Of a stretch of DNA of 64,000 nt, positions 32,538-38,545 are shown in pieces; position 1 is the stretch's first letter, and each line of letters opens with the position of its first letter. The stretch spans positions 1-64,000 of the forward strand of contig JABWCL010000019.1 of NCBI GenBank assembly GCA_013360295.1, written 5' to 3'. Under the pieces are notes generated by a model. That model searched no databases. It saw only the letters and a list, made by a program, of their open reading frames with translations, and was not told the DNA's origin. The stretch is from Ignavibacteriaceae bacterium. Lineage in GTDB: Bacteria > Bacteroidota > Ignavibacteria > Ignavibacteriales > Ignavibacteriaceae. Made by a program: the position numbers and the translations under genes.

Positions 32538-34370
32538 TTATTTCACCAGAATCAATTTGCGACTCTGAACAAAGCTACCCGTCTGCATCCTGTAAATATA
32601 AACACCATTTGCCAAGCCACCTCCGGAAAATGATACGCTGTGATGACCTGCATCCCTATAGCCATCTACTAAAGTCGTAATTTGCTTACCAAGTATGTCA
32701 TAAACCCTTAGCGAAACGTTGCCAGCAAATGGCAATTGGTAATCTATCACAGTACTTGGGTTAAACGGATTGGGGTAGTTTTGCGCGAGATAGAATCCCG
32801 AGGGCTGGAAAACTTCCTTAACTGCGGTTTTAATTCGATAAAATTTAACGGTTGCTGTACCAGTATTGTCCCCAAGATCGCCCCCATCAAGGAAGAATAA
32901 ACTTACCGGGATATTATTTGCCATGCCCGATGGGGTTGGTAAAATAATTTTGGTGGTATCCGTCCCGATTGATTCATTTATGGCATGACCGACCGGAAAT
33001 AGAGGGGTCGTCTCTCCACTGTAAGTCCATAAAAGCACTTTGTCGATAGTTCCACCGGCATGAGTATTGTCAAATGAAGAAGTAACGAACCATTCACCAT
33101 GTGTTAAATTAACGGTTGCAGCAGCGCCAAAATTAGTTGGAAATAGAGCGGTATTTATTTTGGGGTCTACGATTATACTGACGGAATCAATTATTTGAGT
33201 TCCGTTCATACGTCTGAATGTAACCTCGGCAGTTCCTCTGTTATCATTCAGGTCTCCTCCATCAACGAAGAATAGGTAGCAATCAACTGTATCGAGCAGG
33301 GTAGATGGTGTTGGAAGTGATATTGTTATTGGTGTTGAGGGAATGGCTAGGTGTATCGCATGTCCGTTAGGAAATTGAGTAGTCATCTCTCCCGTTGTTG
33401 TCCAGAAAAACACTTTATCAATATCCCCACCGGCGTGAGCATTGAAGAAAGAGGCTGACACATTAAATGTACCGTGAGGCAAGCGAACTTTTTTTGGATT
33501 CGCGAAATTAGCAGGGATAAGCATTGTGTTTTGATTGGGTTTTACCTGAACAGTGAGTGTGTCTGTAAATTGAGATGTTATTTTAGTAAAATTGACTGTA
33601 GCAGTTCCTGTATTGTCATTTAGGTTTCCACCATCAACAAAAAACAAATAACCATCAATACTATCAAGAGTAGAAGGAAGTGGAAAATCTACCATTATAG
33701 TATCTGCCCCAAAACTCTCATGAATTGCATGCCCTCTTGGATAATAAGTTGTTGATTCTCCTGATGGGGCCCAGAAAAGAACTCGTGTGATATCACCGCC
33801 CGCGTGTGTGTTTAACAGTTGAGCATGAACTTTATATTTACCATGGGGCAGGCGTACTTTTTTTGATAGCGAAAAATTGGATGGTATTAATAATGTATTC
33901 TCATCTGGACGGACAGAAACCCTGAATGAATCATTAGAGGAAAGACCAGGCTGTTTAATAAAGAGCAGATTTGCAGTGCCGCTATTATCATTTAAATCGC
34001 CTCCATCCAAAAAAAATAAATTAATTTCCACACTATCAGGGAAATTAGAAGGTAAGGGTAATGAAAAGTATTGAGGAGTCGTTCCTAAGGAAAGATGGAT
34101 AGCATGACCCCGAGGAAAAGCAGGGGTAATTTCGCCGTTTGACGCCCACATAAAAACTTTATCAATGTCCCCGCCTGCGTGCGTATTGTTGAAACTCGCA
34201 ATAACCTTATAATCACCGTGTGGCAGTCTTATTTTTGCCGAAGAATTAAAATCTCCCGGAATCATTACTGTGTTCTGATTTGGATACACATTCACCGAAA
34301 TCGTCTGTGCTGATGAGGGCGATGAAATTTGTAACATAAAGAACGCAAAGAGAGTAATAAAAAGTTTCAT
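32538..34370 (-). CDS. Secreted protein with four copies of an unrecognised repeat and T9SS tail
   Basis: A signal peptide ending near SSAQ (residue 22) precedes four tandem units of about 115-125 residues (roughly 23-146, 147-267, 268-389, 390-510). Each unit contains the pattern KVRLPHGxYxV, NTHAGGDIDKVxxW, GExTxxFPxGHAIH and FFVDGGDLNDNTGTA. The strongly kept His, Asp and Gly residues hint at ligand or metal binding. The last 80 residues (YLAQNYPNPFNPSTVIDYQ ... GVYIYRMQTG) are the type IX sorting domain, so it is exported and anchored or released. I do not recognise the repeat family. Confidence 0.85.
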   Translation of the reverse strand: MKLFITLFAFFMLQISSPSSAQTISVNVYPNQNTVMIPGDFNSSAKIRLPHGDYKVIASFNNTHAGGDIDKVFMWASNGEITPAFPRGHAIHLSLGTTPQYFSLPLPSNFPDSVEINLFFLDGGDLNDNSGTANLLFIKQPGLSSNDSFRVSVRPDENTLLIPSNFSLSKKVRLPHGKYKVHAQLLNTHAGGDITRVLFWAPSGESTTYYPRGHAIHESFGADTIMVDFPLPSTLDSIDGYLFFVDGGNLNDNTGTATVNFTKITSQFTDTLTVQVKPNQNTMLIPANFANPKKVRLPHGTFNVSASFFNAHAGGDIDKVFFWTTTGEMTTQFPNGHAIHLAIPSTPITISLPTPSTLLDTVDCYLFFVDGGDLNDNRGTAEVTFRRMNGTQIIDSVSIIVDPKINTALFPTNFGAAATVNLTHGEWFVTSSFDNTHAGGTIDKVLLWTYSGETTPLFPVGHAINESIGTDTTKIILPTPSGMANNIPVSLFFLDGGDLGDNTGTATVKFYRIKTAVKEVFQPSGFYLAQNYPNPFNPSTVIDYQLPFAGNVSLRVYDILGKQITTLVDGYRDAGHHSVSFSGGGLANGVYIYRMQTGSFVQSRKLILVK

Positions 34371-34504: not shown

Positions 34505-36652
34505 TTAATTATTTACGGAGTTTAAAGATGAGGATTTAACAAATTTATCACCTGTCCAGTATTCAATACTATTGAGGTATTCAGTATTTAATCTCTGACG
34601 ATTTATACCATAGATTTGATCGGTCTTTTTTAGCAAGGCGATTTTATTTTCATAAGGCGTACTGGTTGCCAATGACTTCGGATTCATATTGAAATTCAAA
34701 TACACATAATAAGAAACATCGAAAGTATTATCGCTAAAAGATTCCTTTATATGTAATCTAAGATATTGAGCTTCAGAAAAAATATCCATCTCGTGCAGAT
34801 TGCCGTAGAGTAACTGATCAACTAAAACCTGCCCTAAAAGATAATTGGGAAATTTTATATAGTACTTTTCCGTACCTCCAGCTAAATCCTGAACACGGTA
34901 TTTGGTAGTACCTGGTGACTGGCCATTAATTAACTTCTGATCAAATACTATAAGCACTGCTGACTTAAATGCATTGTTTATTCCCCCGATCACAACTTCT
35001 GTGCGACCGTCATAATCTAAATCAATGAATTTGATGAGATTTAGCCCTCCTATATGAACGTAGCATTGGAGTTCCTTCCCATCCCGAGCATCTATTTTGG
35101 TCAAATAAGTTGAAAAATAGGGGCATCTGGCAAGAACAAGTAATTCATATTTGGAGTCTGGGTTTTTAAGAACATATAAGCTGCCACAAATGTAACTGTC
35201 CTCAAGAAGTTCAACACCAACGAATTTTATTTTTTTCTTCAGTTCATGTTTCCATAATATTTTATTCTGCGTTATGGACTTACAGAGTATTATATCCAGG
35301 TAGGTATTTATTTTTCTGTCACAATATATAACCTCATTTATTCCATCATCATCTATATCAATAAAATCAACATAATTGAAATAGTCCCTTGATCTCTTAA
35401 GGTAATCGATACCAATGCTGCTGAGTTTAATATAATCCAGAGCTTCACCAAACTGATTCTGTATCACGAGATAATCGCCTTTGTATGTGTGTTTGACAGG
35501 ATTTTTATCTACCGGACCATATAAAACAAGAGACAGTGTTCCCGCCAATATTAAGAACAACAGAAGAGCAATTACGCGCCTTATCTTCCATATCTTCCGT
35601 AACGCCCAAACTGGATAACGGATTGGTTTGATTTCTGTCAATTCAGGATTCAGAAGTATATCTTTAATATTATTAACCGGAACTAATTTTAATTCGGGAA
35701 TTTCGGGATAAGATTCCTTAAAAGCCTGCTGATGCCTTTTTGCGATATGGTATTGCTCCTCCGGTACCACCAATATTTTTATTGGCGAAAAAAAGCAGGC
35801 TTCAAGTTTTTTTAATAAGCCTGTGTCATCCACCGAAAGCATTCGTCCATCCGGATCTATCCCTCCCGTTATGGCAATTCCCGTGCGGATTGAATACTCC
35901 CTCCTGTTTTGCATCATTTTAATCATCCCCACCGCAATACTTACCGCAAGCCCTGCTAATAAAGATTCTCCAAGCAAGTAATCAGGCCTTTCAAACCAGC
36001 ACATTGCAACCATCTTTTTTGTGGGGCAGGAGCCTGTGATTTTGGTTACGACTGTACGGGCAGCCCTGATTGCTTTTTCAAATATTTTTTGCTGCTCAGT
36101 ACCAAGATGATTCGTCAACTGAACAATATCCCCGTTGGAACTCTTGCTGTAACTCAATTCAACAAAAAGCTTCCTTACACTGCTGAAATTGGAATGCCCC
36201 GAGGCAGACAATAATTCATTCTCTAAAAGTGGTATATTTACTGAATTGTGGAGTTCACTCTTTTCCGGAGCCGGGACGTGGGTAAATCTCAACTGTGCTG
36301 TATCAATTATCTGATGCAATACCAAAACCAGGCGTTCACGGCTAATAATTAATTCGCTTCGTTCAGTTGGATTTTCAACTATCCCTTCAAGTAAATCGGT
36401 AAAATGTATCAACTCCCTGATAAAAGCCGGATTTGTAAACGAAAAATCCGTTTCCTTGATAAGTTGTGTAAAATGTGGATGAAGAAGAATATAGTAACTT
36501 CGCAGGAAATTTTTGTTCCTGAAGTTATTAATTTGCAGCAAAAAATCGGATATGAGTTTTAGCTTATACCTGCTTGCCGGAGAAATCCGCAGTAACTGGT
36601 TAATTCTTTCGAATTCCCTTTCAATTTCCAATGGCCCTTTAATCCCTTGCAT
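34505..36652 (-). CDS. Membrane protein with Lon-like (S16) protease domain and FG-GAP-like segments
   Basis: Residues 1-200 are helical and unrecognised. Residues 215-335 resemble the Lon protease catalytic domain: GESLLAGLAVSIAV stands where Lon has GPSAG, giving candidate nucleophile S230, then AITGGIDPDGRMLSVDD and GLLKKLEACFFSPIKILVVP, with K281 or K282 as the candidate general base. A transmembrane helix follows (about 359-378). The outside part carries FG-GAP/VCBS-like calcium-loop segments FIDIDDDGINEVIY and FIDLDYDGRTEVVIGG. There is no AAA+ domain. It is last in an operon with an anti-sigma-like and a sigma-like gene, six bases after the former. A membrane protease or pseudo-protease that acts on the cytoplasmic partner is a reasonable inference. 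Confidence 0.7.
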   Translation of the reverse strand: MQGIKGPLEIEREFERINQLLRISPASRYKLKLISDFLLQINNFRNKNFLRSYYILLHPHFTQLIKETDFSFTNPAFIRELIHFTDLLEGIVENPTERSELIISRERLVLVLHQIIDTAQLRFTHVPAPEKSELHNSVNIPLLENELLSASGHSNFSSVRKLFVELSYSKSSNGDIVQLTNHLGTEQQKIFEKAIRAARTVVTKITGSCPTKKMVAMCWFERPDYLLGESLLAGLAVSIAVGMIKMMQNRREYSIRTGIAITGGIDPDGRMLSVDDTGLLKKLEACFFSPIKILVVPEEQYHIAKRHQQAFKESYPEIPELKLVPVNNIKDILLNPELTEIKPIRYPVWALRKIWKIRRVIALLLFLILAGTLSLVLYGPVDKNPVKHTYKGDYLVIQNQFGEALDYIKLSSIGIDYLKRSRDYFNYVDFIDIDDDGINEVIYCDRKINTYLDIILCKSITQNKILWKHELKKKIKFVGVELLEDSYICGSLYVLKNPDSKYELLVLARCPYFSTYLTKIDARDGKELQCYVHIGGLNLIKFIDLDYDGRTEVVIGGINNAFKSAVLIVFDQKLINGQSPGTTKYRVQDLAGGTEKYYIKFPNYLLGQVLVDQLLYGNLHEMDIFSEAQYLRLHIKESFSDNTFDVSYYVYLNFNMNPKSLATSTPYENKIALLKKTDQIYGINRQRLNTEYLNSIEYWTGDKFVKSSSLNSVNN

Positions 36653-36658
36653 TTCAAA

Positions 36659-37486
36659 TCACAGATAAAACTTTACAGATATAAGGCCTTCCGCCGCTTT
36701 TGAGTTTAATATTAATCTTCTGTCAATTAGCTCCATAAGCACAGGTTTATCCTCCTTATATATTAAACCAGCCCTTTTTATCCCTGCTGAATAAGCGGGC
36801 AATTGAATAACGAATTCATTAACATCATTTTTTTCAATAACAAGTTTGCCGGGGTTACTAATCTTCTCTTGTTCAATAGAATTTACCGGCACTTCCAATA
36901 TAGCAGCGGTAACAGCTACTTCCGCTGATTCCCAATCATCAATTTCAAAGTTACTCACATTACACCTCCCGTCACTGCCGGATAAGAAGTAATGCATTTT
37001 ATCCGATTTAGTTTTGACTATTATCAGGACTGTATCATAGAACTTTTTATCGTCGGTCAGAATATAAAATAGTATATCATCGGTGCCTTTTTCCTTCAAA
37101 ACACGGATTAAGACATTGCCATTTACCGCTGAGAATACAGCCATTGTTGAATAATTCTCCTCTGTTTGACGCTTGTCAGCAGCCGCAAATACAATGAGGT
37201 TCTGTGAAGTTTCTTCTTTCGGCCCGGGCAGTTCATTAATATTAAGAAACTTTAATTTAGTCTGGTTAGAGAGAAGCCTCGCTAATTCTTTTGCAGAGTT
37301 AGAAACCGGTTCAGATATTTCTGCATTCAGTATGGAATAAAACTCTATAAATTCCCTGAATTTTTTCAGGCAAACCGAACATAGGTTTTGAAGGGAAGCT
37401 TCGAATTCCTCGATTTCAGAAGGATTTAACTTGATAGCCAGCTTTTCCAATTCAGTTTCAGTATAATGAGTGTGTTCCATATTCAT
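36659..37486 (-). CDS. Anti-sigma-factor-like protein with CxxC finger
   Basis: The first 50 residues look like a zinc anti-sigma domain: an N-terminal HTHYTETELEKLA, then LNPSEIEEFEASLQNLCSVC with C36/C39, although the usual histidine before the first cysteine is a glutamine. The remaining 220 residues are a mixed alpha/beta region rich in acidic residues; I do not recognise it and see no membrane helix. The middle gene of three, it sits 30 bases after the sigma-like gene and 6 before the Lon-like gene. Anti-sigma function is inferred from this pattern and context. Confidence 0.55.
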   Translation of the reverse strand: MNMEHTHYTETELEKLAIKLNPSEIEEFEASLQNLCSVCLKKFREFIEFYSILNAEISEPVSNSAKELARLLSNQTKLKFLNINELPGPKEETSQNLIVFAAADKRQTEENYSTMAVFSAVNGNVLIRVLKEKGTDDILFYILTDDKKFYDTVLIIVKTKSDKMHYFLSGSDGRCNVSNFEIDDWESAEVAVTAAILEVPVNSIEQEKISNPGKLVIEKNDVNEFVIQLPAYSAGIKRAGLIYKEDKPVLMELIDRRLILNSKAAEGLISVKFYL

Positions 37487-37516
37487 ATCGTTCTAAAACA
37501 TCAACCATTCAGAAAA

Positions 37517-38545
37517 TTATAACTCATTTTTCAAAAGAGTGCGTAAATTTTCTTTTGTAATTTTCGCACAGTATTCAAATTTCGTACGGTATTTTACGCC
37601 ATACTCTTCTTCCGAAAGCCCGGGTATATAAAAGCTTAAATATTCATAATAAGATTTTTCGTGTCCATTTAATTCCACAAACTCATCTATCAGTAATTCC
37701 CTGATAGCCTTAATAAAGATTTCAGCCACACTTTCGTGGAGTTTTGCGGAGATACGGTATTTTTTTATAATTGTGTTTTCAAGAAAGCCGATTGCGTCTT
37801 TTATAAACATTAAGATTTCATCCCTAAGTAATGGAGATACAGTGGAATAGCATTCGGGGAAGAGTTCCTGATAAAAGAGAGTTCGAATACTTAACGCGGC
37901 TTCTGTAAGGGATATCTTCCTAACATCTTTTCCGCTGTTCAAAAGCGTATCCGCGACCTGATTAATTATTTCCCTGAGGGTGATATTATTCTTCGGAGTA
38001 AAAGAAACCGCCAACTCATCCCCACCGATATCCTGAACGGTATTTATCCCGGATGGTAAAAATTTTGGCTTTATATACTCCTTATTCATTAAACGAGTTA
38101 ACTCAATCCCCGGATGATCTTTAATGGACAGTTTTATATTTCTGATCAGTTTTCCCAAGGCAGGATCATTTGACTGGTATAATCTGAATATTCTGTGATT
38201 GACGCTGCTGAAAACTAATTTCCTGAGCAGGATGAGTACATCAGTTTCATCAAGACTTTCATATGTATGATGCTCAACAAAATAATTGTAAAGTTCAGGA
38301 TATGTTTTATATGGGTCGTCATTTTTAAAGAGGTCTGCAATCGAATCAAAAGCAAGGTCATTTGCGGACAAACCAAATTTATCAGCCCTGAATTTAGTTT
38401 TACCCGTCTTTAACCAGATATAGCTGAGGGCTATCTTATGACAAAAATTAATGAGATACTTAAGTTTTTCATAAGACTGCTCTCCGCTGAAGATTGATTT
38501 CAGAGCAGCTTTTAGGGTAGTACTATTTATGCCTTTATGATTCAT
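37517..38545 (-). CDS. Sigma-70-like protein, divergent
   Basis: This 342-residue helical protein has stretches that recall sigma factors: LSANDLAFDSIADLFKND (about residues 59-76) resembles the region 2 start, and the C-terminal LSFYIPGLSEEEYGVKYRTK resembles region 4 where helices read DNA. It is longer than an ECF factor, and the similarity is weak and partial. Its place as first gene before an anti-sigma-like gene supports the reading. If it is not a sigma factor I cannot offer another family. Confidence 0.45.
   Translation of the reverse strand: MNHKGINSTTLKAALKSIFSGEQSYEKLKYLINFCHKIALSYIWLKTGKTKFRADKFGLSANDLAFDSIADLFKNDDPYKTYPELYNYFVEHHTYESLDETDVLILLRKLVFSSVNHRIFRLYQSNDPALGKLIRNIKLSIKDHPGIELTRLMNKEYIKPKFLPSGINTVQDIGGDELAVSFTPKNNITLREIINQVADTLLNSGKDVRKISLTEAALSIRTLFYQELFPECYSTVSPLLRDEILMFIKDAIGFLENTIIKKYRISAKLHESVAEIFIKAIRELLIDEFVELNGHEKSYYEYLSFYIPGLSEEEYGVKYRTKFEYCAKITKENLRTLLKNEL

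Follow-up and report, generated by a model that had tools for sequence, protein, structure and literature searches.

The window, a stretch of 64,000 nucleotides from an Ignavibacteriaceae bacterium (contig JABWCL010000019.1, positions 1 to 64,000), holds three minus-strand open reading frames, here called P1, P2 and P3, separated by intergenic gaps of 30 and 6 bases, and their coordinates match the three closely packed genes described in an earlier note on this DNA. Judging from the sequences, all three are real coding genes, because divergent homologues of each are found in other genomes. Single-sequence searches of Pfam, NCBIfam and the PDB gave no match above cut-off for P1, P2 or P3. On the 5' side of the trio, the same strand carries a ParA-type gene and a histidine kinase-like gene, for which conservation with the trio was not seen. 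A role in anti-phage defence was also considered and dropped, as PADLOC returned no match.

Table. Features of the P1-P2-P3 locus, in window coordinates.
Feature	Coordinates	Strand	Remark
T9SS-sorted surface protein, 610 aa, candidate regulatory target	32538..34370	-	TIGR04183 41.2 bits, cut-off 23
P3, membrane Lon-fold/beta-propeller protein	34505..36652	-	715 aa
P3 residues 386-715, FG-GAP-type beta-propeller, predicted extracytoplasmic	34508..35497	-	beta-rich model; FG-GAP_3 in 17/33 members
P3 residues 382-385, juxtamembrane D-x-N-P motif	35498..35509	-	directly C-terminal of helix
P3 residues 360-378, transmembrane helix	35519..35575	-	N-terminus inside by charge
P3 residues 128-342, Lon S16 proteolytic-domain fold	35627..36271	-	profile, VIA, Foldseek
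P3 Lys282 codon, putative catalytic Lys	35807..35809	-	Lys in 67/67 relatives
P3 Ser230 codon, putative catalytic Ser	35963..35965	-	Ser in 67/67 relatives
P2, soluble anti-sigma-type protein	36659..37486	-	275 aa, without membrane helix
P2 residues 1-78, class I anti-sigma-type N-domain	37253..37486	-	28 bits to two-gene-variant profile
P2 C36-x2-C39, apparent remnant of Hx3Cx2C, His lost	37370..37381	-	comparison with outgroup P2s
P1, sigma-like protein	37517..38545	-	342 aa; family recurs just upstream of anti-sigma-type gene (wider loci)
P1 residues 242-342, helical C-domain	37520..37822	-	best VIA match lambda Q
P1 residues 8-126, predicted sigma region-2-like N-domain	38168..38524	-	AlphaFold2 + VIA

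At about 20% identity, relatives of P3 occur in 32 of 80 genomes from the taxonomic family and in 48 of the 395 phylum genomes sampled; those of P1 occur in 30 of the 80 family genomes. The divergence of P2 defeats single-sequence search; iterated profiles recover it adjoining P1. The named relatives belong to Ignavibacteriota and Bacteroidetes metagenome-assembled genomes (MAGs). In MAGs of Ignavibacteriota/Bacteroidota, members of the three families are found together throughout the phylum, and this conserved co-location is what the co-occurrence analysis proposed earlier was meant to look for. Loci outside the taxonomic family mostly run P1-P2-P3 with little space between the genes; within the family, P3 sometimes precedes P1 or lies 6-13 kb from P1-P2, and tandem P3 copies occur. 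At four loci (L138, L140, L143 and L090), two or three copies of P3 follow a single P1-P2 pair, as if several sensors served one switch. In three family members (L065, L093 and L094), P1 is broken into two adjacent open reading frames, possibly by frameshift or decay. A second match in the window's own genome, on contig 19, was rejected as another P3 copy, being an FG-GAP protein that lacks the Lon domain.

Regarding P3, its predicted structure very clearly carries a Lon proteolytic-domain fold. A profile of 33 P3 sequences matches solved Lon proteolytic domains in the PDB, the best being that of A. fulgidus Lon (E 7e-5), and the AlphaFold2 model (pLDDT 82) superposes on E. coli Lon (3wu4) in VIA with Z 19.0, an rmsd of 2.6 and 174 of 178 residues aligned, Foldseek giving E 5e-8 against Lon. 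Structure prediction had been named beforehand as a check on a Lon-type domain at residues 215-335, and it came out in favour of the fold with other boundaries, the model alignment spanning about 128-342. As for sequence profiles, Lon_C stays sub-threshold on the window P3 (residues 237-333, E 0.055), and a phylum-level relative, L172, exceeds the Pfam cut-off (E 5e-7).

The putative catalytic residues, Ser230 and Lys282, are found in 33 of the 33 sequences of the family alignment and in all 67 P3 relatives, phylum-wide, that cover both columns; they lie 52 residues apart, and the profile comparison pairs them with the S and K regions of the A. fulgidus enzyme. The pair first proposed was S230/K281, of which the serine stands; column 281 holds lysine in just 12 of 33 family members, and the dyad lysine is K282. 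Since the dyad is invariant at approximately 20% identity, it would be hard to explain without catalysis. Lon (MEROPS S16) shares both this fold and the Ser-Lys dyad with P3; however, Lons are described with ATPase and protease domains (PMC9569914), whereas P3 is devoid of the AAA+ ATPase and has one membrane helix and a beta-propeller. A Walker A motif is absent from the window P3, and in its strict form it appears in one of 68 P3 relatives, where the match is likely due to chance.

The residues before the P3 helix are more positively charged than those after it in each of the 53 relatives tested, and by this sequence criterion the Lon domain should therefore be cytoplasmic and the propeller extracytoplasmic. 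Directly after the helix, the NP of the D-x-N-P motif is kept in 67 of 76 relatives, whether or not they bear a Lon domain, and the motif is possibly a structural element or an Asn-Pro cleavage site; RsgI-like Asn-Pro autocleavage at this place was dropped, as the Asn is missing in nine of the 76. The FG-GAP-like part previously recognized in P3 holds through its relatives, since FG-GAP exceeds the Pfam cut-off in L142, L152, L154 and L158 and is sub-threshold in the window protein itself.

The N-domain of P2 was compared with a profile of the membrane anti-sigma N-domains from a two-gene variant of the operon (see below), against which it scores 28 bits, and full-length P2 reaches 105 bits against the zinc-type P2 profile. 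The full Hx3Cx2C motif is present in seven outgroup P2s, from six loci, as well as in the two-gene anti-sigmas. Where one outgroup P2 reads HLSACPAC, the window P2 reads LQNLCSVC, so that its CxxC, which survives only in this protein within the taxonomic family, looks like a leftover of the full anti-sigma zinc motif. Anti-sigma domains without a zinc motif are common, at about 44% (PMC7406223), and zf-HC2 is sub-threshold in the P2 relatives. In the 31 wider loci whose next same-strand gene is readable, an anti-sigma-type gene stands immediately 3' of P1, and at every locus tested P2 is free of a membrane helix. The CxxC anti-sigma-like protein of the earlier note is supported by the outgroup motif and by the 28-bit match.

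The two-gene variant, present at ten loci, pairs P1 with a single protein of about 480 amino acids encoded directly after it, in which an Hx3Cx2C anti-sigma domain is joined to a membrane helix and a propeller that are the counterparts of those in Lon-type P3. This arrangement lends independent support both to the anti-sigma reading of P2 and to the predicted N-in topology of P3. Among the outgroup loci, a separate soluble P2 is present in 22 of 22 with a Lon-type P3 and absent from 10 of 10 without Lon, where the anti-sigma domain is fused to helix and propeller. Mapped on a maximum likelihood tree of 56 P1 sequences, these states must have switched at least twice to agree with the well-supported branches. 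On the sensor, the Lon domain stands in for the anti-sigma domain in precisely those loci where the anti-sigma is a free protein. This coupling of Lon-type P3 with soluble P2, although correlational, is the main argument that the Lon domain would act on P2. At another locus (L163:1549-4140), a membrane anti-sigma-type protein bears two tandem propellers.

Instead of a protease, the Lon-fold domain could be a docking platform, with P3 keeping P2 at the membrane and letting it go or capturing it by conformational change. The structural matches of P3 include BrxL and RadA, in which this fold serves other roles; the domain is devoid of a Walker ATPase, and the sensor shared with the two-gene variant works there without a Lon domain. 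However, an invariant Ser230 and Lys282 in so divergent a set of proteins argue for catalysis, and mere docking is considered unlikely.

P1 is quite probably a sigma factor. In its AlphaFold2 model (pLDDT 82), the best VIA match of the N-domain is WhiG (Z 6.1, rmsd 3.3, 89 residues aligned), and among the matches listed all are sigma region 2, from WhiG, SigB, sigma-S, sigma-70, sigma-32, FliA and SigE, with Z from 4 to 6.1, values of a size that, by VIA's own caution, may mean a common arrangement. Foldseek alone found no match for P1 at E < 0.5. The Pfam profiles of sigma regions 2 and 4 leave it unmatched at both window and family level, NCBIfam gave two single-member sub-threshold matches (SigW, E 0.02; ShbA, E 0.05), and the hhalign sigma comparison reached a probability of 1.3%. 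Sequence profiles of the genome's own ECF sigmas showed no signal, shuffled or reversed controls scoring at least equal, and a likeness of the string ED..D....LF to region 2.2 was discarded as evidence because the reversed control scored higher. Thus, the sigma-like label given to P1 by the earlier note draws some weak agreement from structure and none from sequence profiles, and, as the fold match is weak and the sequence match absent, the sigma reading leans on the anti-sigma partner. The window P1 also falls outside the clade of its own taxonomic family's P1s; its nearest relative is that of the class-level L142, at 33% identity, which suggests a transfer or an old paralogue.

Another reading takes P1 as a different RNA-polymerase- or DNA-binding regulator, for instance one whose C-domain resembles lambda Q, and has an anti-sigma-type protein hold it. 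This reading agrees with the missing sigma profile match and with the top structural match of P1, that of its C-domain to lambda Q, whose Z of 7.8 is inside the noise range for helical domains; against it stand the listed N-domain matches, all of them to region 2 of sigma factors of several families, and the zinc anti-sigma domain that partners P1 in two-gene loci. Such a regulator appears decidedly improbable.

Taken as a sigma-like relay, the three proteins would work as follows. P2 would be the soluble cytoplasmic anti-sigma of P1, an RNA polymerase factor of divergent, sigma-like type, and P3 would be a sensor-protease with an outside propeller, one helix and a cytoplasmic Lon-fold protease without ATPase. 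A signal at the propeller would activate the Lon domain, which would cut or inactivate P2, and the freed P1 would transcribe a regulon likely to include the neighbouring surface proteins exported by type IX secretion (T9SS). This proteolytic scheme, put forward in the earlier note, is now the best-supported mechanism, its cleavage step being putative, and the whole relay is given a little better than an even chance. It builds on the computed operon conservation, Lon fold, invariant dyad, topology, anti-sigma domain of P2 relatives and module swap, to which it adds, by inference, the sigma identity of P1, an active Lon domain with P2 as substrate, and both the signal and the genes targeted. Counting against it are the P3 genes that can lie 6-13 kb from P1-P2 in the window's family, the missing sigma profile match of P1 and its low structural Z values, the failure to find a promoter common to operon and cargo, and a cargo enrichment that falls short of significance when the window's family is taken alone. 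That the Lon domain cuts another substrate (for example P1, its own P3 chain or the precursors of exported cargo) and a different protease regulates P2 would suit the T9SS cargo encoded downstream and the several P3 copies after one P1-P2 pair, but is very unlikely given the strict coupling of Lon-type P3 to a separate soluble anti-sigma.

Regulated proteolysis of anti-sigma factors normally takes separate site-1, site-2 and cytoplasmic proteases. Whether an ATP-independent membrane Lon, its cutting of a soluble anti-sigma gated by the outside propeller, replaces the site-1/site-2 cascade, with evolution swapping it for the classical membrane anti-sigma and back while the sensor stays the same, is evenly balanced. 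If true, one membrane protein could combine sensing with the destruction of the anti-sigma, a previously undescribed route for a signal across the membrane to transcription. In the open-access literature, no description was found of a Lon domain joined to an anti-sigma or FG-GAP domain, in line with the earlier statement that no example with Lon in this position was known. The Lon and non-Lon pairs on the same sensor would also provide a natural comparison for the passage from membrane anti-sigma to sensor-protease, and a function is offered for a large and uncharacterised gene family of Ignavibacteriota/Bacteroidota, one that has multiplied and diverged strongly.

Among known systems, the ECF-type class I anti-sigma (ASDI) systems likewise place an anti-sigma N-domain, with or without Hx3Cx2C, beside a sigma-like gene, and the two-gene variant follows their usual plan of anti-sigma, one helix and outside sensor. 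Anti-sigmas of this class are membrane-bound in about 65% of cases (PMC7406223). Unlike the membrane ASDI systems, the window operon has a soluble anti-sigma and puts the Lon-fold protease on the membrane sensor; unlike ECF systems, P1 escapes sigma profiles. SigI/RsgI of Clostridium thermocellum has a similar outline, with outside sensor, helix, anti-sigma and divergent sigma, a likeness at the level of function only. RsgI relies on autocleavage, RseP and ClpXP (PMC12203970), whereas the window operon has no RseP-type step and its protease is built into the sensor protein.

T9SS sorting tails are found in 12 of 48 same-strand downstream neighbours of the operon, compared with 39 of 516 other genes of the same loci (Fisher p 5e-4), and the wider loci alone give 9 of 30 against 11 of 193 (p 3e-4); within the window's taxonomic family alone, the enrichment is not significant. 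The T9SS surface proteins are likely regulatory targets, and the large gene family of Ignavibacteriota/Bacteroidota is probably tied to them. A search for a promoter motif common to operon and cargo gave none above shuffles. In Porphyromonas gingivalis, PorXY-SigP is a sigma pathway linked to type IX secretion (PMC4800418); it uses a two-component system, without a Lon-type or anti-sigma module of the window's sort. Just downstream of the operon in two relatives (L151:8494-13620 and L146:9280-12681), surface proteins with a T9SS tail carry cohesin, dockerin, BACON, fn3 or CBM domains. SigI/RsgI controls cellulosome genes, and the dockerin or cohesin genes of these two relatives recall that control.
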